Source: Aquificaceae bacterium
GTDB lineage: Bacteria; Aquificota; Aquificia; Aquificales; Aquificaceae
Length of the DNA stretch: 64,000 nucleotides
NCBI GenBank assembly: GCA_027079305.1
Contig: JALWVU010000073.1
Span: 62,001 to 126,000, forward strand
Direction of reading: 5' to 3'
Below, piece after piece: positions 3,434-14,879 of this stretch (the first letter of the stretch is position 1; the number at the start of each line of letters is the position of its first letter). Under the pieces are notes generated by a model, which was not told where the DNA came from, did not search any database, and worked only from the letters and a program-made list of their open reading frames with translations. The position numbers and the translations under genes are program-made.

Positions 3434-4337
3434 GACGGTTAGCAGGTTACTTTTTAAGAAAGGTAAGGTAGAGAATACAGCATTGCTTTTTAATAAGCTT
3501 CTTACCTTCTTTCTCGGAGAGAATCTATACCAAGTGCAAAAACCTGAAGACTACAGAGAAAAAGCGTGGGAAGAATTCAAAAAATCCCTCGCCTCTTATA
3601 CAGATTTCCTTCCAGAACGTATGGGAACGCACCTAATGGACATCAAAACTGCCTACCGCCTTGCTATAGGCATGGGACTTCCTTCCCTTTTTGAAAACGG
3701 TCTTTTGTTCCATCACACCTACGGTGTGCCTTACATACCGGGTGAGAGTTTAAAAGGTCTTGCAAGGGCTGTTCTGCTTGTGTCAATTTATGAAAATGAG
3801 GAAGTTAAGAAGAAAGTAGACTCTCTCTCAGACCTTGAGAAATACCTCCTTAACAAGAGAGAAGACTTTGAAAATGACAAGCGTGGGCTAACTCGCATAC
3901 TTGATGAACAGAAAATCAGCTTAATTTTTGATGAAAACAACTTTCAGATTGAGAAAGCCCACAGACTGTTTAGAGACATCTTTGGAACTACCGAGAGAAG
4001 GGGGCAAGTAATATTCTTTGACGCCTTTCCGAAATCGTTTAAACCTAAAGAGCTTCTTGATATAGACATAATGAATGTCCACTACCAAAGCTACTACCAA
4101 AATAAAAAAGAGCCGGGAGACTGGGAGGATCCTAAACCTATAAAGTTTCTTGTAGTTAAGAAAGGAGTAGAGTTCTCTATACACATTGATGTAGCACCAC
4201 TCAGCGGTGATTTTGACGAGCGAAAAGCTATAGATATAGTTAGAAGACTTCTCAAGGTAGGGCTTGAAAACTTCGGACTTGGTGGTAAGAAGAGGAAGGG
4301 GTATGGGTGGTTTGAGGTTACCGAAAAGCGTCTTTGA
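3417..4337 (+). CDS. cmr6: Cmr6, type III-B RAMP protein (Cas7-like)
   Basis: Cmr6 is a Cas7-like subunit that caps the head end of the type III-B complex. The 306-residue protein has the RAMP pattern YGVPYIPGESLKGLARA near residues 102-118, the segment DIFGTTERRGQVIFFDAFP in the middle, and a glycine-rich C-terminal loop (GLGGKKRKGYGWF), all expected for Cmr6. The gene overlaps cmr5 at its start and the CARF-like membrane gene at its end. Cmr1, the other head subunit, is not present downstream and would have to lie before the window edge. Confidence 0.9.
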   Translation: MSRVLETVSRLLFKKGKVENTALLFNKLLTFFLGENLYQVQKPEDYREKAWEEFKKSLASYTDFLPERMGTHLMDIKTAYRLAIGMGLPSLFENGLLFHHTYGVPYIPGESLKGLARAVLLVSIYENEEVKKKVDSLSDLEKYLLNKREDFENDKRGLTRILDEQKISLIFDENNFQIEKAHRLFRDIFGTTERRGQVIFFDAFPKSFKPKELLDIDIMNVHYQSYYQNKKEPGDWEDPKPIKFLVVKKGVEFSIHIDVAPLSGDFDERKAIDIVRRLLKVGLENFGLGGKKRKGYGWFEVTEKRL

Positions 4338-5214
4338 TGAGACAAAACTTATACTGCTCTATGGGCTTGTATCTACCGTAGCGATACTTTGGTGTCCCGC
4401 TTTTATTAGCCCTCTTGTGGCTTTAGCTATGTCGGTTTTCTTTTTAATCAAGCAGATAAATGAGAAACCTGAGGTTGAACTGCGCTCTCTCGTCAGATCC
4501 CTCATCTCTGGTTCAATTCCGGGCTACTCGACTTTCATGATAGTGATCCTCTTTATCGTCTATACCTCTTGGTTTGCAGATTTTTTAGCTCAGGGGAGTT
4601 TCTATAAGGCTCTGGCGAGCTTCCTTTTCACAGCAGGGTTAGCGCCTCTATACGCTATGCATATTGAATATAAGCTGGGAAAAGAGACTGACAGGGTTCC
4701 TAAAAAGATACTCATCTCAGCACTTTCTAAACCAAGCGGAAAAGCAAGTCTTGAGGAACTGAAAGAGGCTTTCACAAAGGGAGAAAAAGCACTGATTGAG
4801 CTTAATAAGGAAAAGTGGCATAACTGGGTTCCTTTTCTAAGGCTATATATCTTCCATAAAGACACCTTACACAGGTGGTTTATGTTGGTCAGTAAAGAAA
4901 GCCAAGAGGAAAAATTTAAGGAAATAATAGGTGAGCAGGAAAAGATAGAAACCTACGAGGCGAATTTTGATAACTACAATGATATAAGCTCCAAGCTCTT
5001 CAGGATCTTGAAAGAGATAAGAAGTGAAGGCTACAGTGATGATGACATATCCGTATATATAAGCGGAGGGACCTCCGCGGTTACACTTGCACTTACACTG
5101 TTTGCGGTAAAAGACGGAAGGCAGGTGGAGTACATAAGGCAAGATACCAAAGAGATCGTAGCGATAAACATAAGCTTTGAAGATCTATACTCCTTCAGTC
5201 CGGAGGAGAGGTAG
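4303..5214 (+). CDS. Membrane-anchored CARF-like protein, predicted type III effector
   Basis: A 303-residue protein encoded directly after cmr6, overlapping it by 35 nt. The frame is open back to a TTG at 4264, but ATG 4303 directly follows the purine-rich GAGGAAGGGG; TTG 4312 is an alternative. The N-terminal third has four hydrophobic segments (about residues 16-32, 34-50, 77-95 and 100-119). The soluble C-terminal part (about 135-292) looks like a CARF Rossmann fold: a first strand and loop KKILISALSKPSG, then ISGGTSAVTLALTLFAVKDG and a VEYI strand, matching the GGT-helix-strand pattern of domains that bind cyclic oligoadenylate. No nuclease domain is visible, so the membrane part is the likely effector. 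Cam1 and Csx23 are known membrane effectors of type III systems; I cannot say whether this belongs to either. CARF assignment is by eye. Confidence 0.72.
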   Translation: MGGLRLPKSVFDETKLILLYGLVSTVAILWCPAFISPLVALAMSVFFLIKQINEKPEVELRSLVRSLISGSIPGYSTFMIVILFIVYTSWFADFLAQGSFYKALASFLFTAGLAPLYAMHIEYKLGKETDRVPKKILISALSKPSGKASLEELKEAFTKGEKALIELNKEKWHNWVPFLRLYIFHKDTLHRWFMLVSKESQEEKFKEIIGEQEKIETYEANFDNYNDISSKLFRILKEIRSEGYSDDDISVYISGGTSAVTLALTLFAVKDGRQVEYIRQDTKEIVAINISFEDLYSFSPEER

Positions 5215-5265: not shown

Positions 5266-6285
5266 ATGGGAGGACTAACGCTTACCATCATCACCGCTAA
5301 GGCGACCAGCCTCAACTATGGCGAGAGCGTGGGGAACGTGTCTGTTCTTAAAAAGCTCTCTTTGGGGGACGGCTCTCAAAAGACCTTCGTTTCGGACAAG
5401 GCACTAAAGTATGACATGCGAAGGAAAGGAAGAGATGAAAAGGGCTGGAGACTTCTGGATCAGGAGCTGAAAAAGCATATCACGAATAGTCTGCGCAACG
5501 ACGAGTTTGACGTAGACTCTTTCGGAAAAGCTTTAATCAAGGACTATGAAGAGTTTGACCTTTTCGGAGGATTATTTACAAACTTGAGGACAGAAGACGG
5601 GAGAAAAATAGTGAAAAAAGATAAGAAAAGAAAAAAGGATGAAATACATCTAAGCTACGGAGATAGTGTAAAGAGAACCTGCCCAGTTAAAGTAACCTAT
5701 GCGTTCTCTATCTCTAAGTTTTCAGGGGATATGAATTTCCTCAACAACATAGATGCTTACAATAGATACATAAAGCATGTAGAAGACGAAAAGGAACAAT
5801 CTATACCGACCTCCGAGGAGCACACTTCCCACTACCTCTACACAGTGACCGTTGACCTTGACAGGGTAAGCATGTGGGAAAAGGAAGATGGAACGACCGA
5901 GGAAGTTTTAGACAACAAAGAAAAAGCTAAAAGAGTTCTTGACCTGCTGGACATAATCAAAACGCTCAATCGTCAAATAAAGGGAAGGTGGGAGAACCTT
6001 TCCCCGGTCTTTGTAGTTGGAGGAGTTTTTAGCATCAAGCATCCCTTCTTCATAGAAGGCGTGGAAGCGGTAGAGGACGGGGACAAGCTTTGGCTCAACG
6101 TCCAAAGGCTCAAAGAGAGCTTTGGGTATCTTCCTGACGGTGAGAGTCCTGTCGTGGGCATACTTTCGGGAATTTTCGGAAATGAGGAAGAGATAAGGGA
6201 ATCTCTTGGGGCGGTGTCTGTGGCGGAAGCCTTTGACAAGCTAAAGGAGCAGGTGAGGGAGCACTATGGAGTGTCTGAAGTTTGA
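5266..6285 (+). CDS. cas7: Cas7, type I-B backbone protein (Cst2/DevR family)
   Basis: Cas7 coats the crRNA spacer in the type I-B Cascade complex. The 339-residue protein resembles the Cst2/DevR branch: it opens with LTLTIITAKATSLNYGE, contains FVSDKALKYDMRRKG near residues 43-57, and has SFGKALIKDYEEFDLFGGLF in the region that is 'DlFG' in this family. A strong AAGGAGGTG ribosome site precedes ATG 5266. The 51-nt gap after the CARF-like gene is the largest in the cas region and marks the switch from the type III-B to the type I-B genes, though I see no clear promoter in it. It overlaps cas5 by 20 nt. Confidence 0.88.
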   Translation: MGGLTLTIITAKATSLNYGESVGNVSVLKKLSLGDGSQKTFVSDKALKYDMRRKGRDEKGWRLLDQELKKHITNSLRNDEFDVDSFGKALIKDYEEFDLFGGLFTNLRTEDGRKIVKKDKKRKKDEIHLSYGDSVKRTCPVKVTYAFSISKFSGDMNFLNNIDAYNRYIKHVEDEKEQSIPTSEEHTSHYLYTVTVDLDRVSMWEKEDGTTEEVLDNKEKAKRVLDLLDIIKTLNRQIKGRWENLSPVFVVGGVFSIKHPFFIEGVEAVEDGDKLWLNVQRLKESFGYLPDGESPVVGILSGIFGNEEEIRESLGAVSVAEAFDKLKEQVREHYGVSEV

Positions 6286-6904
6286 ACTCTTCTCTCCCTG
6301 CGCTACCTTTAAAACTCCTTTTTCTTTAAAAGGGATAGAAACCTATCCGCTCCCGCCCTACTCTACCATAATCGGGCTTCTATACACCGCTTTGGGGAGG
6401 AAGTGGGAGGGGGAGGAGTTCTCCATCTCGGTTCAGGGAGATTATGAAGCGATCTTCAGAGACTATATAAGGTTTAGGAAATACAACCGCAAAGATAAGG
6501 AACTGCAGGTTCTCCCTCTTGAGGTGCCGAGGCTTTACAACCTGCGCTGTGTGGTTCATGTCTTGGGGGATGGAAGCCTGATTGACAAGTTTATGAGCGC
6601 TCTACAAGAGCCGAAGGTATACCTCTTCTTAGGGGGAGGTGAGTATCCGGTGCTCGTTAAAAATCCGAGGAAAATTGATGTGGACGAAAGAGAGGTTGAG
6701 CTTGAGACAAAATACTCTGCCTTCGTTCCCGAGTCCAAGGCTTCGCTCTTTGACCAGAGGGGTATCCCTTTCCGCCTGCCGTCTTTCTACGAAGAAGGTG
6801 GGGAAAAGGCTTACCGGTGGGAACAGGTCTACTTCCTGCCTAAGCTCAGCATAGTGGAAGGTCCACTCCTAATGGACAGAGAGGGGGACGTGGTATGGGT
6901 ATAA
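6266..6904 (+). CDS. cas5: Cas5, type I-B (Cas5t-like)
   Basis: Cas5 caps the crRNA 5' handle in type I-B Cascade. The 212-residue protein begins with the Cas5 N-terminal signature (FELFSPCATFKTPFSLKG, then YPLPPYSTIIGLLYTALG), where the aromatic and proline-rich pattern before a helix is diagnostic. The gene overlaps cas7 by 20 nt and cas8 by 10 nt, indicating coupled translation. Confidence 0.9.
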   Translation: MECLKFELFSPCATFKTPFSLKGIETYPLPPYSTIIGLLYTALGRKWEGEEFSISVQGDYEAIFRDYIRFRKYNRKDKELQVLPLEVPRLYNLRCVVHVLGDGSLIDKFMSALQEPKVYLFLGGGEYPVLVKNPRKIDVDEREVELETKYSAFVPESKASLFDQRGIPFRLPSFYEEGGEKAYRWEQVYFLPKLSIVEGPLLMDREGDVVWV

Positions 6905-8358
6905 AGTTCTATGCAGACAGCTGGCTTACAGCTTCCGCAGGTGTGGGGCTTTTGAGGGCTTTGGAGAATGCGGGATACAGGTGGGAGGGTTTTGTAGAGG
7001 GAAATACCGTAGAGCTTGATGAGGGGATTTTTAATAAACTGGGTCAGATTTACAGCCAATATTTGCTCAGAGACTTAAGCCTTGAAGGGTTTAAAAAGAT
7101 CTTGGAAAACAAAAAAGATAAGTTCAACCTTTACAACGTTGTAGTCTATGAAAAGATAAATGACTTTTTCTCCAACAGCCCGCTCACAAATCCTTCGGCA
7201 ACCAAGAAGGTGGGTGAGTCTTTTAACTCTCTACTCGGGCAAGGGGAAAGCGTAGAGAAACTACTTGTTGAAGGCAAAAGGCTGATAAAAGAGTTCATAG
7301 AAGAAAAGTTTTCGGAGATTTTAAGTTATCCGAGGAGCCAAAAGGTTTGCTTTTTTTGTAAAGAGAGACCTGCATACAAGAAAAAGGGCAAGGTAAAAGT
7401 CCTTGACGCTACCAACTTTACACCTCTCGCTGCCAGTCTTGACACAGTAGAAAACTTCTTTTGGGAAGGCAGGAGCAACATGTATCTCTGCCCCGAATGT
7501 GAGATATTTCTATACTTCTCAGCCTTCGGCTTCCACAGAACGCCTATGAGGACTTATCTGTTCGTATATCTGCCGGATCTTGAGAATACCAAGCGAATGA
7601 ACGACCTTCTCACAGATGAACCAGACCTTCGGTCTTTCATGAATAGAACCATAGTTGAAGCATCAAAGAAGCTTGAAGGAAGGAAGGCGGACTGGATTTT
7701 AAGAAATATTTACATTGTTGAAATTGAGAAAGTAGGAGATGCCCAGTCTAATATCTACACGCTCAGCATAAGCCCGAGGCTGGCAAGGGCTATAAGGGAA
7801 AACATTGAACACTATCCTAAAGTCTTTAACGACCTCTTTGGGATCTTCCTTGACTACGTATACTCTGGCAAAAGTCTTTATGAATTCCTCTATAAGATCC
7901 TGTCAGGATTCTTCTTCAAAAGCCGTTATAAGAAGTTGATGAAGGGCATGTATGCTAAGCTTGTAAAAAAAGGCACAAGCTTCAAAGACTTTTTACCTCG
8001 TAATTTGACCTACTTCATCAAATTTCAGGAGGTGCTGGACATGGAGGACAAAGAGAAGGTTAGAAAGCAGATCAACTGGGCTTACAGCGAGGGTTTGGCA
8101 CTTAAGGAGATCTATGAGCAGGGTATGGGAAAAGAGAAGGCAAGCAGAAAGATTGAAGGGATATCCTACAAGCTCCTTGACGCTGTCCGCAGAAGGGACA
8201 CGGATGCCTTCCAGCAGAACCTGATACGGGCTTATCTTGAGGCGGAGAGGGAGATTCCCTACATCTTTGTGGAAGCTCTAAAAGACGGGAGCTTTAACAG
8301 GATAGCTTACGCCTTTTTGATAGGGTTGAATGGGAGAGGTAAGGAGGAAGTGGAGTGA
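6895..8358 (+). CDS. cas8: Cas8 large subunit, Cst1-type CXXC-CXXC protein
   Basis: Large subunit of the type I-B complex, expected to read the PAM and recruit Cas3. The 487-residue protein matches the Cst1 (Tneap-subtype) pattern: it opens with IKFYADSWLTASAGVGLLRA and holds paired cysteine motifs CFFC (about residue 152) and CPEC (about residue 199, in YLCPECEIFLYF), the zinc ribbon for which the family is named. The stop codon overlaps the start of the next gene by one base. Family recognition is by motif and position between cas5 and cas3. Confidence 0.85.
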   Translation: MGIKFYADSWLTASAGVGLLRALENAGYRWEGFVEGNTVELDEGIFNKLGQIYSQYLLRDLSLEGFKKILENKKDKFNLYNVVVYEKINDFFSNSPLTNPSATKKVGESFNSLLGQGESVEKLLVEGKRLIKEFIEEKFSEILSYPRSQKVCFFCKERPAYKKKGKVKVLDATNFTPLAASLDTVENFFWEGRSNMYLCPECEIFLYFSAFGFHRTPMRTYLFVYLPDLENTKRMNDLLTDEPDLRSFMNRTIVEASKKLEGRKADWILRNIYIVEIEKVGDAQSNIYTLSISPRLARAIRENIEHYPKVFNDLFGIFLDYVYSGKSLYEFLYKILSGFFFKSRYKKLMKGMYAKLVKKGTSFKDFLPRNLTYFIKFQEVLDMEDKEKVRKQINWAYSEGLALKEIYEQGMGKEKASRKIEGISYKLLDAVRRRDTDAFQQNLIRAYLEAEREIPYIFVEALKDGSFNRIAYAFLIGLNGRGKEEVE

Positions 8359-8765
8359 TGGTTAGGGCAGTAGTTTTAGTCATCTTAGGTTGGCTTGTTT
8401 TTTCTTTCGGGCAAACTCAAGAGGGAACAGACAATATACAAAGAGCCAAATATTTAGGTAAATGGGTCGGAGATCCAAGAGTTTTTTTAGAGCGAGAGGG
8501 TTTTATCATATTCCCGGTAGGAGGTGATGCCTTCCTTTGCGTTTACGGGGCATGGAACAGTAAGGAGTTCTTAGAGGAGGCGAATAATTGTATAAAGAAA
8601 TTTACTAGCGGGTATGCTCTCTTCTGTGCTCAAAAAGGCTTTACTCACTATGGGATAGCAAACTTCAGAATATCACACAGCAATCTTATAATCGACGCAG
8701 GAAGAAAATATGGGCATTTTATGGTTATATACGGCGACATATTCTGCGCTATGAGGGCAAAATAA
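8358..8765 (+). CDS. Small exported protein embedded in the cas operon, function unknown
   Basis: A 135-residue protein I do not recognise. ATG 8358 overlaps the cas8 stop as TGATG. Residues 1-19 form a signal-peptide-like segment (VRAVVLVILGWLVFSFG then Q), so the mature protein should be periplasmic or secreted. The mature part has four cysteines (FLCVYG, NNCIKKF, LFCAQKG, IFCAMR), an even number that would allow two disulfides. There is no lipobox. It sits between cas8 and cas3 on the same strand, only 16 nt before a second exported protein, so it is almost certainly transcribed with the cas genes. No nuclease, lysin or CRISPR motif is visible. Confidence 0.75.
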   Translation: MVRAVVLVILGWLVFSFGQTQEGTDNIQRAKYLGKWVGDPRVFLEREGFIIFPVGGDAFLCVYGAWNSKEFLEEANNCIKKFTSGYALFCAQKGFTHYGIANFRISHSNLIIDAGRKYGHFMVIYGDIFCAMRAK

Positions 8766-8781
8766 TCGGGAGGTATAGGGT

Positions 8782-9348
8782 ATGAGGCTTTATATCTATG
8801 CGCTTCTGACAATACTCGTAGTTGGAATTTCATTTGCAAAACCTCCGACCCCTTTCGGACTTGAGCTAGGCAAAACTACGGAAAAGGAGTTCTTAAGTTT
8901 AGTGAAGCAAAAGGGCTGGCGGATAGAAAAGTCGGGCTACAGGATAATAGAGGGGGATTTGACGAATCCCGACGTAACCGGATACATAATATCGGGCATC
9001 AATCTGGACAGACTTGAATCCGCAACTTTCTGGTTTTACAAAGGCACGCTCTTTAAGATCGTCTACACACTTTCAGAGAATATGGACAAGAAAACCTTCT
9101 ACCTCTATTTTGATCAGCTGAAAGCTAAATACGGGAAGCCCATATCCTATACCAAACCTTGGCTTGCAAACGGGGAAGCAGTATGGAGATTCGGAAATGT
9201 TAAACTTAGCCTTTACTGCCCGTGGGTGGGAAGGAAAACCTACATAATGTATGTCCATACTGCCCTTGACAGACAGGCGGAAAAAAGCGACGAGGCTTAC
9301 TACAGGAAGTATATAAGGGAAAAGAGCAAGAAGTTAGAGGCTCTTTGA
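8782..9348 (+). CDS. Second exported protein embedded in the cas operon, function unknown
   Basis: A 188-residue protein with a clear signal peptide (YIYALLTILVVGISFA, cleavage likely after residue 19) followed by PPTPFGLELGKTTEKEFLSL. A segment near residues 95-130 (KKTFYLYFDQLKAKYGKP) and the opening 'PFGLELGKTTEKEF' recall small periplasmic proteins of unknown function with a 'fG..lG.s..el...l..kyG.P' pattern, so a housekeeping-like family is possible. A good GGGAGGTATAGGG ribosome site precedes ATG 8782. The gene overlaps the upstream TTG candidate of cas3 and lies a few bases from its ATG. Its presence inside a cas operon is unusual. Confidence 0.78.
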   Translation: MRLYIYALLTILVVGISFAKPPTPFGLELGKTTEKEFLSLVKQKGWRIEKSGYRIIEGDLTNPDVTGYIISGINLDRLESATFWFYKGTLFKIVYTLSENMDKKTFYLYFDQLKAKYGKPISYTKPWLANGEAVWRFGNVKLSLYCPWVGRKTYIMYVHTALDRQAEKSDEAYYRKYIREKSKKLEAL

Positions 9349-9353
9349 TAAAC

Positions 9354-11492
9354 ATGGAAGCTCTCTCCAGGCTCTGGGCTAAGTCCGACGGCACCACCAT
9401 AAGGGAACACACGGATAAACTTCTGGAGAACATGAAACTCTTGCGACAGCTTTACGGCGATCTAATAGAAAATACCCTTGATCCTGAAGAGAGTGAAGCC
9501 TTCTGGAAAGCCCTTGAACTGGCCTGTGAGTATCACGACTACGGGAAGATGCACTGCTGGTTTCAGAAGAAGGTGGGAAATCCTGATTTTAAAAGGGTTA
9601 GAACCTCCCTCCCTGAGGTCAGACATAATCTTTTGTCTCCTGCATTCCTGCCGGATATAGGGGAGAAAGCTCTTAAAACGCTCGTGTCCCTTGCCATACT
9701 CCACCACCACGATCACGAATCCTCAAGGGACAGCGTAGATAAGGTTGAGAAGGTCCTCAAGGAGGAGTTCGGCAAAAGTCTGGACTTGAGCCTCAAGAGA
9801 ATACTGAGACAGTCCGAATGGGAAGCGGTCAAGAAACTGGAGGAAAGGGAAGGTAAAGAGTTCACGCGTTTTTATACGCTCTTGAAGGGATTCCTTCTCA
9901 GAATTGACCACGCCAGCAGTTCAAAGCACGGTGCGAGTGTGGAAAGCAAGCGATTAACGGATAACGAAGAGAGGGTTAAAAACTACCTTGCTGAGAAGAA
10001 AAACAGTCAGCTCAATGATCTTCAGAAGTTCGTCTTAGAAAACAGGGAAAACAATCTGCTGGTGGTCGCATCAACGGGCTATGGGAAGACAGAGGCGGGC
10101 TTTATATTCCTAAAGGACAAGGGATTTTTTACTATCCCTATCAGAACTTCTGCAAACGCTATATTCAGCAGGGCGAGTGAGGTGTTCTCTGAGGAAGATG
10201 TTGGGCTTTTACACTCCACCGCACCTCTCTTTTTGCTTGAGAACTCGGAGAGCAAGAGGAATTTTGATAGGAACACTATTGTAAGCGATATATTCCTTAC
10301 TAGAAATTTTGCAAAGCCTCTGATAGTCTCAACTCCAGACCAGCTCTTTCCCTTTGTCTTCAGACCTAAAGGCTTTGAGAAGTTTCTATCTATGTTCTCC
10401 TACTCAAGGGCGGTGATTGACGAGATCCAGCTCTTTGAACCTCACACGCTCGGGTTTCTGGTAAAGGCGATAGAAAAAGCTCATGAGATAGGCGGAAAGA
10501 TCATGGTGATGACTGCAACACTTCCTTCCTACGTTCGCAGAGACCTGCAGGACATAGAGTTCAGGGAAGGAAGGTTCATAACCGAGAGCACCAGACACAA
10601 CATAAAGCTAATTCCGTCATCTATTACAAGTGAGGGAGGGCTGAGTTTGATAAAGAAACTTTCCGAAAGGGGCAAGGTTCTCGTAATAACAAACACACGG
10701 ACTAAAGCTCTGGGACTGAAGAAAGCTCTCAGGGAGGGAGAAGTTATTCACTCATGGTTTATTCAAAAGGACAGGAAGAAGAGGGAGGAAGATATAAAGG
10801 GCTTCTTTGACTCGGAAGAAAAAGGCTTGTGGATTACCACTCAGATTGCGGAGGTCTCCCTTGACCTTGATGCGGACTTTCTGGTAACGGAACTCTCCAC
10901 CGCAGACTCGCTCTTGCAGAGGATGGGAAGGGTGAACAGGAAGGGATTGAAACCTACGGACGAGCCAAACGTCTTTGTCTTTACCGAAGAGAGTTCAGGG
11001 ATAGGCGGAGTTTACAGAAAGAGCATTCACGAGATAACCAAGGAAAAACTCAGGGAGGGCTTGATTGACGAGGAGTGGAAACTTAGGTTCGTGGAGGAAG
11101 TTTACTCAGCTCTGGAGGAGAGGGATAGAGAATACATCAGCAAATACGAAAAGGCTAAAAGATACATAGACAACCTCTGGATACTGAGGGAAAGGTTCTT
11201 CAACAAGAGGGAAGCTCAGGAGATGTTCCGGGAGATTCTGAGTGAGGTGGTTATCCCTGAAGTCTTCAAAGAGGAAGTAGAGCCTCTGGTAGAGGAATAC
11301 CTACGTGAGAAGGATACAATTAGGAAATTAGAGCTTTTCTCAGAAATACTTGGATACACCTTCAGTTTGCCTTATTATTGGGAGGTTAGGCTCCAACCTG
11401 TAAAGGGTCTTAAAGGAATTTTCTGGGCAAGCGGGGATTACTCATCAGAGACGGGCTTCGTGGAGGGAGCGGGTGGAGGTAATATCCTCTGA
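9354..11492 (+). CDS. cas3: Cas3, HD nuclease-helicase of type I CRISPR
   Basis: Cas3 is recruited by target-bound Cascade and degrades DNA. Numbered from a TTG at 9345, the HD domain spans about residues 15-200 with H22, the H64-D65 pair in CEYHDYGK, H94 and the HHHDH cluster at 120-124. The SF2 helicase follows: Walker A STGYGKTE (243-250), DEIQ (359-362), TATLPS (390-395) and the motif VI region QRMGRVNRKG (525-534). All key residues appear intact. ATG 9354 is my preferred start because it has better spacing from AGAGG at 9336-9340; TTG 9345 would overlap the previous stop. A GTG for cas4 overlaps the 3' end. Confidence 0.94.
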   Translation: MEALSRLWAKSDGTTIREHTDKLLENMKLLRQLYGDLIENTLDPEESEAFWKALELACEYHDYGKMHCWFQKKVGNPDFKRVRTSLPEVRHNLLSPAFLPDIGEKALKTLVSLAILHHHDHESSRDSVDKVEKVLKEEFGKSLDLSLKRILRQSEWEAVKKLEEREGKEFTRFYTLLKGFLLRIDHASSSKHGASVESKRLTDNEERVKNYLAEKKNSQLNDLQKFVLENRENNLLVVASTGYGKTEAGFIFLKDKGFFTIPIRTSANAIFSRASEVFSEEDVGLLHSTAPLFLLENSESKRNFDRNTIVSDIFLTRNFAKPLIVSTPDQLFPFVFRPKGFEKFLSMFSYSRAVIDEIQLFEPHTLGFLVKAIEKAHEIGGKIMVMTATLPSYVRRDLQDIEFREGRFITESTRHNIKLIPSSITSEGGLSLIKKLSERGKVLVITNTRTKALGLKKALREGEVIHSWFIQKDRKKREEDIKGFFDSEEKGLWITTQIAEVSLDLDADFLVTELSTADSLLQRMGRVNRKGLKPTDEPNVFVFTEESSGIGGVYRKSIHEITKEKLREGLIDEEWKLRFVEEVYSALEERDREYISKYEKAKRYIDNLWILRERFFNKREAQEMFREILSEVVIPEVFKEEVEPLVEEYLREKDTIRKLELFSEILGYTFSLPYYWEVRLQPVKGLKGIFWASGDYSSETGFVEGAGGGNIL

Positions 11493-11994
11493 GGAGAAAA
11501 AAGAGCTGAAGTTCAAGGGCACGCAGGTAGCCTACGCTGTGGTCTGTCCGAGGAAGCTCTGGCTATTTTCCAAAGGCATCACGATGGAACATACCTCCGA
11601 TAGGGTGGCTCTGGGAAAGTTCTTGGACGAAGAGAGCTTCAAGCGTGAGGAGGGCTTTTCTGACGAGAACGTGAGTATTGACTTTATAACCTCTGAGGAT
11701 GGTCTGATAGTCCACGAGGTCAAAAGCTCAAAGGCTCTGGAGGAAGCTCACATAATGCAGGTCAAGTATTACATCTTTTATCTCAAGAACAAAGGCGCTC
11801 AGGTTTCCCACGGACTTTTGCACTATCCGAGATTGAGGAAAATAGAGAGGGTGGACTTATCCAAGGAAGACATCAAGGAGCTGGAGAGCGTCCTGTCCCG
11901 TATAGAGGAGGTTCTATCACTTCCTACTCCGCCGAAGGTTATAGACAAGCCTTACTGCAAGAAGTGTGCTTACTACGAGTTTTGCTATGGGTAG
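11473..11994 (+). CDS. cas4: Cas4, adaptation nuclease with iron-sulfur cluster
   Basis: Cas4 trims prespacers and helps select PAM orientation together with Cas1-Cas2. The 173-residue protein has the four cluster cysteines: one in VVCPRKLWL (about residue 25) and three at the C-terminus in YCKKCAYYEFC. The RecB-like nuclease core shows IDFITSEDG and the VHEVKSSK motif with the catalytic lysine. The start is GTG 11473, overlapping cas3 by 20 nt, and the stop overlaps cas1 by 8 nt. Confidence 0.93.
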   Translation: MEVISSEEKKELKFKGTQVAYAVVCPRKLWLFSKGITMEHTSDRVALGKFLDEESFKREEGFSDENVSIDFITSEDGLIVHEVKSSKALEEAHIMQVKYYIFYLKNKGAQVSHGLLHYPRLRKIERVDLSKEDIKELESVLSRIEEVLSLPTPPKVIDKPYCKKCAYYEFCYG

Positions 11995-12937
11995 GAGCTA
12001 CTTTATCCTTAGCGATGGCAGTATAAAGAGGAAGGAAGACACGGTTCTTTTCCAGAACTCCGAGGTCAGAAAGGTTATACCTATTGAGGACATAGATGAG
12101 ATTTTTGTGCTTGGAGAGGTTTCCTTGACCTCTAAGGTTCTAAAGCTGATGTCTCAAAAGGGAGTGGCTCTGCATCTTTTCAACCGCTATGGCTTTTACA
12201 CGGGAAGTTTTTATCCGAGAGAGACTAACGTCTCTGGGTTTCTGATAATCAAGCAGTCCGAACATTACCTTGACCACGAGAAGAGGCTCTTCCTTGCCAA
12301 GTCCTTCGTCCTCGGGGCTATTGAGAATCTGGCTCATGTATACAAACTTGAGGCAAGGGACTACCTTGAGAGGCTATCTGAATGCAAAAGCGTGGAAGAC
12401 GTCATGAGCGTGGAGGGAGACTTCAGGAAGAGGTGCTATGCAGAGCTTGAGAAGATAACGGGCTTAGAGTTTGGCTCAAGAAGTAAAAGACCGCCGCAGA
12501 ATCCGCTCAACGCTCTCATATCCTTTGGGAACTCCCTCGTCTATGCCAAGGTCTTGGGAGAGATATACTTCACTCAGCTCAATCCCACAATCAGCTACCT
12601 GCACGAGCCTTCTACCAAGAGGTTCTCTCTCTCGCTGGACGTGGCAGAGGTATTCAAGCCCATACTTTCGGACGGGCTTATAGTAAGACTCCTGCGAAAC
12701 GGTAAGCTAAGAAAGGAACACTTCGTAAGCGAGTCCAGCATGTGTTATCTGAATAAGGAAGGGGCAAAGATATTCCTCTCCGAATTTGACCAGCTTTTAA
12801 ACAAAACAATAAAACACAAGAAGCTCAAGAGAAAAGTCTCTCACAGGAGCCTGATAAGGCTTGAGCTTTACAAGCTCATAAAACACCTGATAGGAGATGA
12901 AGTCTATAGACCTCTCATATACAGGAGCTTAAGTTGA
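11987..12937 (+). CDS. cas1: Cas1, CRISPR integrase
   Basis: Cas1 catalyses spacer integration as a complex with Cas2. ATG 11987 is chosen over the upstream GTG 11966 because the product then begins MGRSYFILSDGSIKRK, the usual Cas1 start; this gives 316 residues and an 8-nt overlap with cas4. Catalytic metal ligands are visible as the glutamate in VEGDFRKRCY (about 141-150), the histidine in SYLHEPSTKR, and the acidic residue in SLDVAEVFKP. It is the only integrase in the window and probably serves both arrays. Confidence 0.95.
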   Translation: MGRSYFILSDGSIKRKEDTVLFQNSEVRKVIPIEDIDEIFVLGEVSLTSKVLKLMSQKGVALHLFNRYGFYTGSFYPRETNVSGFLIIKQSEHYLDHEKRLFLAKSFVLGAIENLAHVYKLEARDYLERLSECKSVEDVMSVEGDFRKRCYAELEKITGLEFGSRSKRPPQNPLNALISFGNSLVYAKVLGEIYFTQLNPTISYLHEPSTKRFSLSLDVAEVFKPILSDGLIVRLLRNGKLRKEHFVSESSMCYLNKEGAKIFLSEFDQLLNKTIKHKKLKRKVSHRSLIRLELYKLIKHLIGDEVYRPLIYRSLS

Positions 12938-13215
12938 AGGTAATTCTCGTTTACGACATAGCCACGGAGGAGCCTAAAGACCAGCAGAGGCTGAACAAGG
13001 TCAGGAAGATTGTGAGGAAATACATAACTCACGTCCAGAAGTCCGTTTTTGAAGGTGAACTGACCAAGTCCAAATTGGAGAGAATGAAGTTGGAGATACT
13101 GAGGGTGGTGGATAGAGAAAGGGACTCGGTGATTATCTACGTGCTTGAGGACAACGCTAAATACGAGCGCCAGCTACTTACGGATGTGCCGGATCCGACG
13201 GACAATATTTTGTAG
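12934..13215 (+). CDS. cas2: Cas2, adaptation subunit
   Basis: Cas2 forms the central dimer of the integration complex. The 93-residue protein opens with the ferredoxin-like strand KVILVYDIA carrying the conserved aspartate (D8) and contains HVQKSVFEGEL and DSVIIYVL, both typical. The start is a TTG that overlaps the cas1 stop by 4 nt. It is the last rightward cas gene; a small gene on the opposite strand begins its stop codon only 2 nt away. Confidence 0.94.
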   Translation: MKVILVYDIATEEPKDQQRLNKVRKIVRKYITHVQKSVFEGELTKSKLERMKLEILRVVDRERDSVIIYVLEDNAKYERQLLTDVPDPTDNIL

Positions 13216-13648: not shown

Positions 13649-14396
13649 ATTAAACGGCTCGTTTGGGGTTCCTAATGTGCCGTGTGGAGTTGAAAGCGGT
13701 CTTATGTATCAGTGTTCACTGACAAAGGAAGCGTTCCTAATGTGCCGTGTGGAGTTGAAAGATTGTAAAGCCCAGATAGAAACAGGGCACGTTAAAATGT
13801 TCCTAATGTGCCGTGTGGAGTTGAAAGACCTGTATTCTCTTAACGCTCTCCTGCCAAATTTTAGTTCCTAATGTGCCGTGTGGAGTTGAAAGAAAAGTTC
13901 TTAAAGGTAGGGCTAAAAAGCTTCCTTTCGTTCCTAATGTGCCGTGTGGAGTTGAAAGCAAGTGAATATATGGCTGATTTTACAGGCATATAAATGTGTT
14001 CCTAATGTGCCGTGTGGAGTTGAAAGAGTTTTTATTTTGACTATACAAACTTACAGATGCATTAGTTCCTAATGTGCCGTGTGGAGTTGAAAGAGGAAGA
14101 GAGAAGCCGCGGAGTGATACCTAATTACTACAAGTTCCTAATGTGCCGTGTGGAGTTGAAAGGTTTATCGGAAAACACAGGTGATTAGAAAATGAAAAGT
14201 TCCTAATGTGCCGTGTGGAGTTGAAAGAGGTTTTGGAGTTATACCTAACTCTGATGGAACGAAAGTTCCTAATGTGCCGTGTGGAGTTGAAAGGAGCGCA
14301 GATGCGCTCTGGAGAGACATCAGGAGGGCAGGTTCCTAATGTGCCGTGTGGAGTTGAAAGATGATAGTTCCAGCCAGGCCCCAGACACCAGACAAA

Positions 14397-14530
14397 GTTC
14401 CTAATGTGCCGTGTGGAGTTGAAAGTAATGTTTTCCATGCCTTCTAAGGCTGTCCTGATCTTCGTTCCTAATGTGCCGTGTGGAGTTGAAAGTAATGTTT
14501 TCCATGCCTTCTAAGGCTGTCCTGATCTTC
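14397..14530 (+). repeat. Tandem duplication of one repeat-spacer unit
   Basis: The 67-nt unit 14397-14463 (repeat plus spacer 12, which begins TAATGTTTTCC) is repeated exactly at 14464-14530. This is probably recombination or slippage between repeats rather than two acquisitions. Confidence 0.95.
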
Positions 14531-14693
14531 GTTCCTAATGTGCCGTGTGGAGTTGAAAGTAGGGATGCTGGACGAAGCCAAGTCCGCCTTTTCCTGTTCC
14601 TAATGTGCCGTGTGGAGTTGAAAGATAAGCGAATCAACTACATAATCATTAATCCTATTGGTTTCTAATGTGCCGGGTGGAGTTGAAAGTTCT

Positions 14694-14715
14694 CAAGAGC
14701 TTTCTTAAGCTCTTG
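14694..14715. repeat. 9-bp hairpin inside the terminal spacer of array 1
   Basis: CAAGAGCTT at 14694-14702, loop TCTT, and AAGCTCTTG at 14707-14715 pair perfectly. It occupies the last spacer, just before the degenerate final repeat. The terminal spacer of array 2 also carries a 9-bp hairpin of different sequence. Confidence 0.85.
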
Positions 14716-14757
14716 GGATAGTTGCTGTGTTCCTAATGTGCCGGGTGGATCTGAAAG

Positions 14758-14879
14758 GTAAACAAATTAGACAAGTGGATAGCGATTTTGTGCTACCTAA
14801 TCCGCTGTCAATAAATTCCCAGTTGTTCGGTTCAACTTCTTGATGTTCCGCATCCGCCGGGTGATAATACTTAATAGGA
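14758..14879. other. Trailer of array 1 with possible decayed repeats
   Basis: No gene is visible. Two short stretches resemble worn-out repeats: ACCTAATCCGCTG near 14795-14807, and GTTCCGCATCCGCCGGGTG at 14845-14863, which matches the array 2 repeat type at most positions of its first half. They are spaced roughly as repeats would be, which suggests that the array once extended to the tRNA. Weak evidence. Confidence 0.35.

Follow-up and report, generated by a model that had tools for sequence, protein, structure and literature searches.

What role might two apparently exported proteins play inside a CRISPR-cas operon? Wholly exported proteins are unusual within such operons, yet the window analysed here, a 64,000-nucleotide stretch of DNA from an Aquificaceae bacterium, carries genes for two of them, ORF1 and ORF2, at the junction between cas8 and cas3 (Table 1). 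None of the 16 insert-free loci that we compared encodes an exported protein between cas8 and cas3, and none is described in the limited literature that we searched.

Table 1. Features of the type I-B locus and its surroundings. Coordinates are window positions, except for the last row.
Feature	Position	Strand	Description
Membrane CARF protein, CARF8/CARF_TM kind	4315-5214	+	Adjoins Cmr module; proposed partner in the original prediction
cas7	5266-6285	+	Upstream part of I-B operon
cas5	6266-6904	+	Upstream part of I-B operon
cas8b1 (Cst1)	6895-8358	+	TIGR01908, E 2.2e-45; upstream neighbour, stop codon overlaps ORF1 start
ORF1	8358-8765	+	Predicted exported 135-aa protein, four invariant cysteines; signal peptide ~residues 1-18, predicted cleavage between SFG and Q
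ORF2	8782-9348	+	Predicted exported 188-aa protein, phylum-wide Aquificota periplasmic family; signal peptide ~residues 1-19, predicted cleavage between SFA and K
cas3 (HD + helicase)	9354-11492	+	TIGR01587, E 1.7e-68; downstream neighbour
cas4, cas1, cas2	11473-13215	+	Downstream part of I-B operon
CRISPR array, 17 repeats (GTTCCTAATGTGCCGTGTGGAGTTGAAAG)	13655-14758	+	
G063 slot gene, 163 aa	L063 6280-6771	minus	Unrelated to ORF1 and ORF2

The locus reads cas7-cas5-cas8b1-[ORF1-ORF2]-cas3-cas4-cas1-cas2-CRISPR array, with ORF1 and ORF2 on the cas strand. All seven cas genes expected of a type I-B system are present, in order and above the curated cut-offs tested, together with an array. A Cmr (type III-B) module also lies in the window, alongside the membrane CARF gene and the type I-B operon. 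The ORF1 ATG (8358) shares one base with the cas8 TGA (TGATG), with a GTG at 8355 as an alternative start. The gap between ORF1 and ORF2 is 16 nt, GGAGG precedes the ORF2 ATG, and 5 nt separate the ORF2 stop from the cas3 ATG (9354), for which a TTG at 9345 that overlaps the ORF2 stop is an alternative. A search for a promoter belonging to ORF2 returned one 10/12 match (8664-8692), and promoter-like sites numbered 3, against 2.4 expected by chance. Five weak terminator-like sites (1.1 expected), with stems of 5-6 bp, were not counted as evidence. Homologous genes in the same slot of two other genomes, together with purifying selection, argue against chance open reading frames. Within the array, one spacer is duplicated, two adjacent repeat-spacer units (14397-14530) sharing 100% identity over 67 nt.

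Signal peptides of the Sec type were assessed by eye and by hydropathy. The N-terminal ten-residue hydropathy maximum is 3.1 for ORF1 and 2.9 for ORF2; the soluble Cas and Cmr proteins of the operon all score 1.8 or less, and the membrane CARF protein reaches 2.3 by the same measure. Beyond the signal peptide, we found no hydrophobic segment in either protein (rest-of-protein maxima 1.8 and 1.2). The cleavage motif, [SA]FG followed by Q, is kept in three close ORF1 proteins, and in the ORF2 family cleavage is mostly predicted after xFA or xFAQ. The mature part of ORF1 has exactly four cysteines, which are invariant in four homologues, including one that is only 23% identical. The original prediction had described two co-directional, exported proteins embedded between cas8 and cas3 and overlapping or nearly touching their cas neighbours, one of them with four cysteines in its mature part. 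We verified coordinates and strand; given the tight packing, the hydrophobic N-termini and the cleavage motifs kept in homologues, this observation is confirmed. Hydropathy and the signal peptides conserved in relatives support the predicted export, and the four-cysteine protein is ORF1.

A Cas8b1 search detected the system in 22 of 64 Aquificaceae genomes, and 20 loci, our own among them, had a readable cas8-cas3 junction. In 16 of the 20 there is no inserted gene, and cas8 abuts or nearly abuts cas3; the junction holds an insert in the other four, of which ours has both ORF1 and ORF2. The locus of G061 has ORF1 and an ORF2 broken by a 62-bp out-of-frame deletion. Since this assembly also has one-base frameshifts in cas5 and cas3, the break may be due to an assembly error or to a locus that is decaying as a whole. 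The slot of G058 contains ORF2 alone, which starts (GTGATGTTTCGG...) at the position of ORF1, as if ORF1 had been deleted. That of G063 is filled by an unrelated, apparently non-exported gene whose first nine bases (ATGGTTAGG) equal those of ORF1. The sole relative that we found of this gene is in G004 (L135), between an N6-methylase-like gene and a gene for an SNF2 helicase. Recurrence beside cas8 and cas3 elsewhere had been proposed as a check, and the arrangement is indeed present in another genus. In a tree of concatenated Cas7-Cas5-Cas8-Cas3 sequences, the four occupied loci and that of G015 form one clade (UFBoot 100, SH support 1.0). The 20-locus count leaves out G015, whose Cas proteins make it our closest relative, because its contig breaks off within cas8; no cas3 was detected there. 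On the simplest history, a single capture would have taken place in the ancestor of this clade, after which G058 lost ORF1, the ORF2 of G061 was broken and both genes were replaced in G063. The start of ORF2 at the place of ORF1 in G058 and the nine shared bases in G063 fit loss from a shared ancestor. In G057, extra partial copies of the 3' part of cas8, with stops, lie between cas8 and cas3 (L069 7753-9773).

Differences among ORF1 and ORF2 homologues are concentrated at third codon positions. Comparing our locus with G058, we obtained dN 0.18, dS 1.06 and omega 0.17 for ORF2, with omega at 0.13 for cas8 and cas3 and 0.09 for cas7; comparing it with G061, omega was 0.16 for ORF1 (cas8 0.10) and 0.14 for the intact part of ORF2, all of these values being approximate because dS is high, near saturation. 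ORF1 and ORF2 are under purifying selection, near the level of their cas neighbours (0.09-0.13). That the genes have been lost repeatedly points to their being dispensable in the longer term.

Neither protein matched Pfam, NCBIfam or PADLOC, including any cas or CRISPR-accessory model, and a PDB sequence search with the family profiles gave nothing credible. Searches of 50,697 phage records and 72,556 plasmid records gave no hit to either protein, and IMG/VR likewise yielded none for ORF1. Viruses of Aquificota are poorly sampled.

ORF1 is the rarer of the two: in addition to the copies in two cas loci, it has one relative in G013 and one in G012. The G013 relative, 42% identical and with the same four cysteines, lies between atpG and atpD, as named from sequence (L031 4132-4551, minus strand); that of G012 is remote (23% identity) and away from cas genes. 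A structural model of ORF1 based on four sequences (pLDDT 77) predicts an alpha/beta domain made up of a strand, a long helix and two further strands, and the best fold matches of this medium-confidence model are YbjQ/UPF0145 and DUF74 structures (3qkb and 1y2i; TM 0.39-0.52). We rejected assignment of ORF1 to YbjQ_1 (PF01906) by sequence, there being no Pfam match and an hhalign probability of 0.1-1.5%; sequence profiles therefore leave the likeness to YbjQ as a lead on fold only. The source genome does have a match to PF01906, in another, membrane-anchored gene outside the window. The YbjQ/DUF74 fold has been grouped with DUF1471 and with RcsF, an envelope protein whose disulfides are redox-active (PMC4092069). 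ORF1 resembles RcsF in being a probable envelope protein with cysteines that may form disulfides, although RcsF itself is not among the listed fold matches.

Members of the ORF2 family occur in 27 of 136 Aquificota genomes, spread over 13 of 30 genera. ORF2 belongs to this Sel1-associated family by a profile match over the whole mature protein, the family model having been seeded with ORF2; we found no Pfam or NCBIfam model for the domain. In Aquificaceae, ORF2-type genes are free-standing, and in several genomes they lie next to a TPR or TPR-Ppx/GppA gene. No match to the TPR-Ppx partner was detected in the source genome at E 1e-20. In other families, the domain is also found as the C-terminal part of Sel1-repeat proteins (L090, L092, L094, L097). 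The cas-linked copies group with the Sel1-fused and free forms of these other families (95% support, ~48-54% identity) and are mostly 37-44% identical to the free copies of Aquificaceae; to judge by this grouping, the cas locus may have acquired the domain from outside Aquificaceae. In the high-confidence ORF2 model (pLDDT 92), the protein is predicted to consist of two alpha/beta halves together with a long helix at the C-terminus. Its nearest solved fold is DUF4309 (B. subtilis YjgB, PDB 4ygt; Foldseek probability 1.00, E 2.4e-3), with TM scores that are low (0.42/0.51), and no Pfam sequence match to DUF4309 (PF14172) was detected.

Are ORF1 and ORF2 tied to CRISPR function? The original prediction suggested that they might be partners of the membrane CARF protein, a specific connection that our comparison does not support, CARF-TM genes being present without ORF1 or ORF2 in G009, G020 and G063. 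The CARF-TM proteins of our locus, G058 and G061 are of the closest type (61-69% identity) and that of G063 is divergent (28%); in G063 the flanking cas genes are ~82-96% identical despite the swapped CARF gene. PADLOC searches with ORF1 and ORF2 gave no match to a CARF or SAVED sensor, and we found no transmembrane helices after the signal peptides. Two relatives of ORF2 outside the slot have cas neighbours. That of G097 (L144 10715-11284, minus strand) follows a type III-C operon (Cmr6, Csx11, Cmr4, Cmr5, Cmr3) on the same strand at a distance of 83 nt, and has one in-frame TGA where its relatives have Trp. A distant relative in G010 (L145 3746-11385) adjoins a CRISPR array and a cas2-cas1-cas2 cluster. 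The G010 neighbourhood further includes cas6 and a protein in which a region weakly matching SAVED is joined to a STIV_B116-like domain. Non-cas genes flank most of the ORF2 relatives. By our own estimate, which assumes that 2.5% of the DNA is cas DNA, two cas-adjacent cases among ~19 independent loci outside the discovery locus correspond to P ~0.08, so an excess of cas neighbours is not established. Scattered homologues with no link to cas genes had been named as evidence against a CRISPR connection; the ORF2 homologues do mostly lie away from cas genes, as do the two ORF1 homologues located elsewhere than in the slot (G013 and G012), but the slot itself recurs.

We favour, with a probability of roughly 0.55, the explanation that periplasmic cargo genes were captured once into the cas8-cas3 junction, selected there, and later eroded or swapped, their function being independent of interference. 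The two genes, both for periplasmic proteins, would have entered the junction on a single occasion, in the common ancestor of an Aquificaceae lineage of type I-B systems, within one branch of heat-loving Aquificota. They are probably transcribed together with the cas genes, their translation being coupled to that of cas8 and cas3, and their products would leave the cytoplasm by Sec; such export would mean that they do not work inside Cascade (the I-B complex) or with Cas3. Judging from its fold and domain company, ORF2 is most likely a binding domain of the periplasm, with a double alpha/beta architecture like that at the C-termini of Sel1-repeat proteins. ORF1 may be a small envelope domain stabilised by disulfides. 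The selected role would most plausibly be related to envelope stress or to entry, gaining from, or tolerating, expression with defence genes. Because they are absent from most other lineages of the system, ORF1 and ORF2 probably represent useful cargo or a local addition, and not a standard CRISPR part. A function tied to CRISPR could explain their long-term retention in the operon equally well, and an anti-phage role in the envelope (surface defence or receptor masking) is possible.

Such retention under selection is what would be expected if the two were dedicated CRISPR accessory proteins in the envelope, acting as partners of the membrane CARF effector or as blockers of phage DNA entry. 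This explanation also draws on the shared CARF-TM type of the loci that have ORF1, ORF2 or both, from which G063, having lost both, differs, and on the cas-adjacent relatives in G097 and G010. We nevertheless consider it unlikely, since the loci have a common descent that accounts for the CARF correlation, CARF-TM stands without either gene in G009 and G020, the mostly non-cas company of ORF2 relatives shows no significant excess of cas neighbours on the assumed background, and the G097 copy has an internal TGA. We give somewhat less credence to the idea that ORF1 and ORF2 together form a periplasmic arm of the CRISPR locus that guards or remodels the envelope, blocking DNA entry or gating the CARF membrane effector; if true, this arm would give the CRISPR-Cas system an extracytoplasmic layer. 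The original prediction also allowed for neutral passengers, inserted without breaking the operon. If so, they would now be decaying, and such decay could account for the missing ORF1 of G058, the broken ORF2 of G061, the replacement of both in G063 and their absence from 16 other loci; however, omega of 0.14-0.17 for both genes across two genera disfavours neutrality, and conserved cleavage motifs and four conserved cysteines are not expected of neutral genes at such dS, making this explanation as improbable as a periplasmic arm. Least likely is that cargo of a virus or mobile element, such as an exported moron or exclusion-type protein, was dropped into the cas locus. The unrelated slot gene of G063, with its relative in G004 beside methylase-like and helicase genes, would fit such an origin, but the phage and plasmid records lack ORF1 and ORF2, IMG/VR lacks ORF1, and the relatives of ORF2 are ordinary chromosomal genes across the phylum.

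Whichever explanation holds, these loci range from both genes present, through one gene broken, one deleted or both replaced, to neither ever present. This natural series lends itself to asking by what route non-cas genes come to sit in a defence operon, and whether it is for immunity or for something else that selection retains them. The locus also outlines an unnamed periplasmic domain family of Aquificota. Sel1-repeat proteins of this phylum, themselves exported, have a C-terminal domain that is the same as ORF2 (52-54% identical), whereas the domain in the cas locus stands alone, with its own signal peptide and without Sel1 repeats. Type III membrane effectors (Cam1, Csx23 and CARF-TM) likewise act in the envelope and are encoded in cas loci; they carry a nucleotide-sensing domain and transmembrane helices, whereas ORF1 and ORF2, which are predicted to be wholly exported, have neither feature. 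Compared with type I-B systems that have Cas8b1/Cst1, our operon has the same seven cas genes in the same order, and adds two apparently exported non-cas genes between cas8 and cas3.
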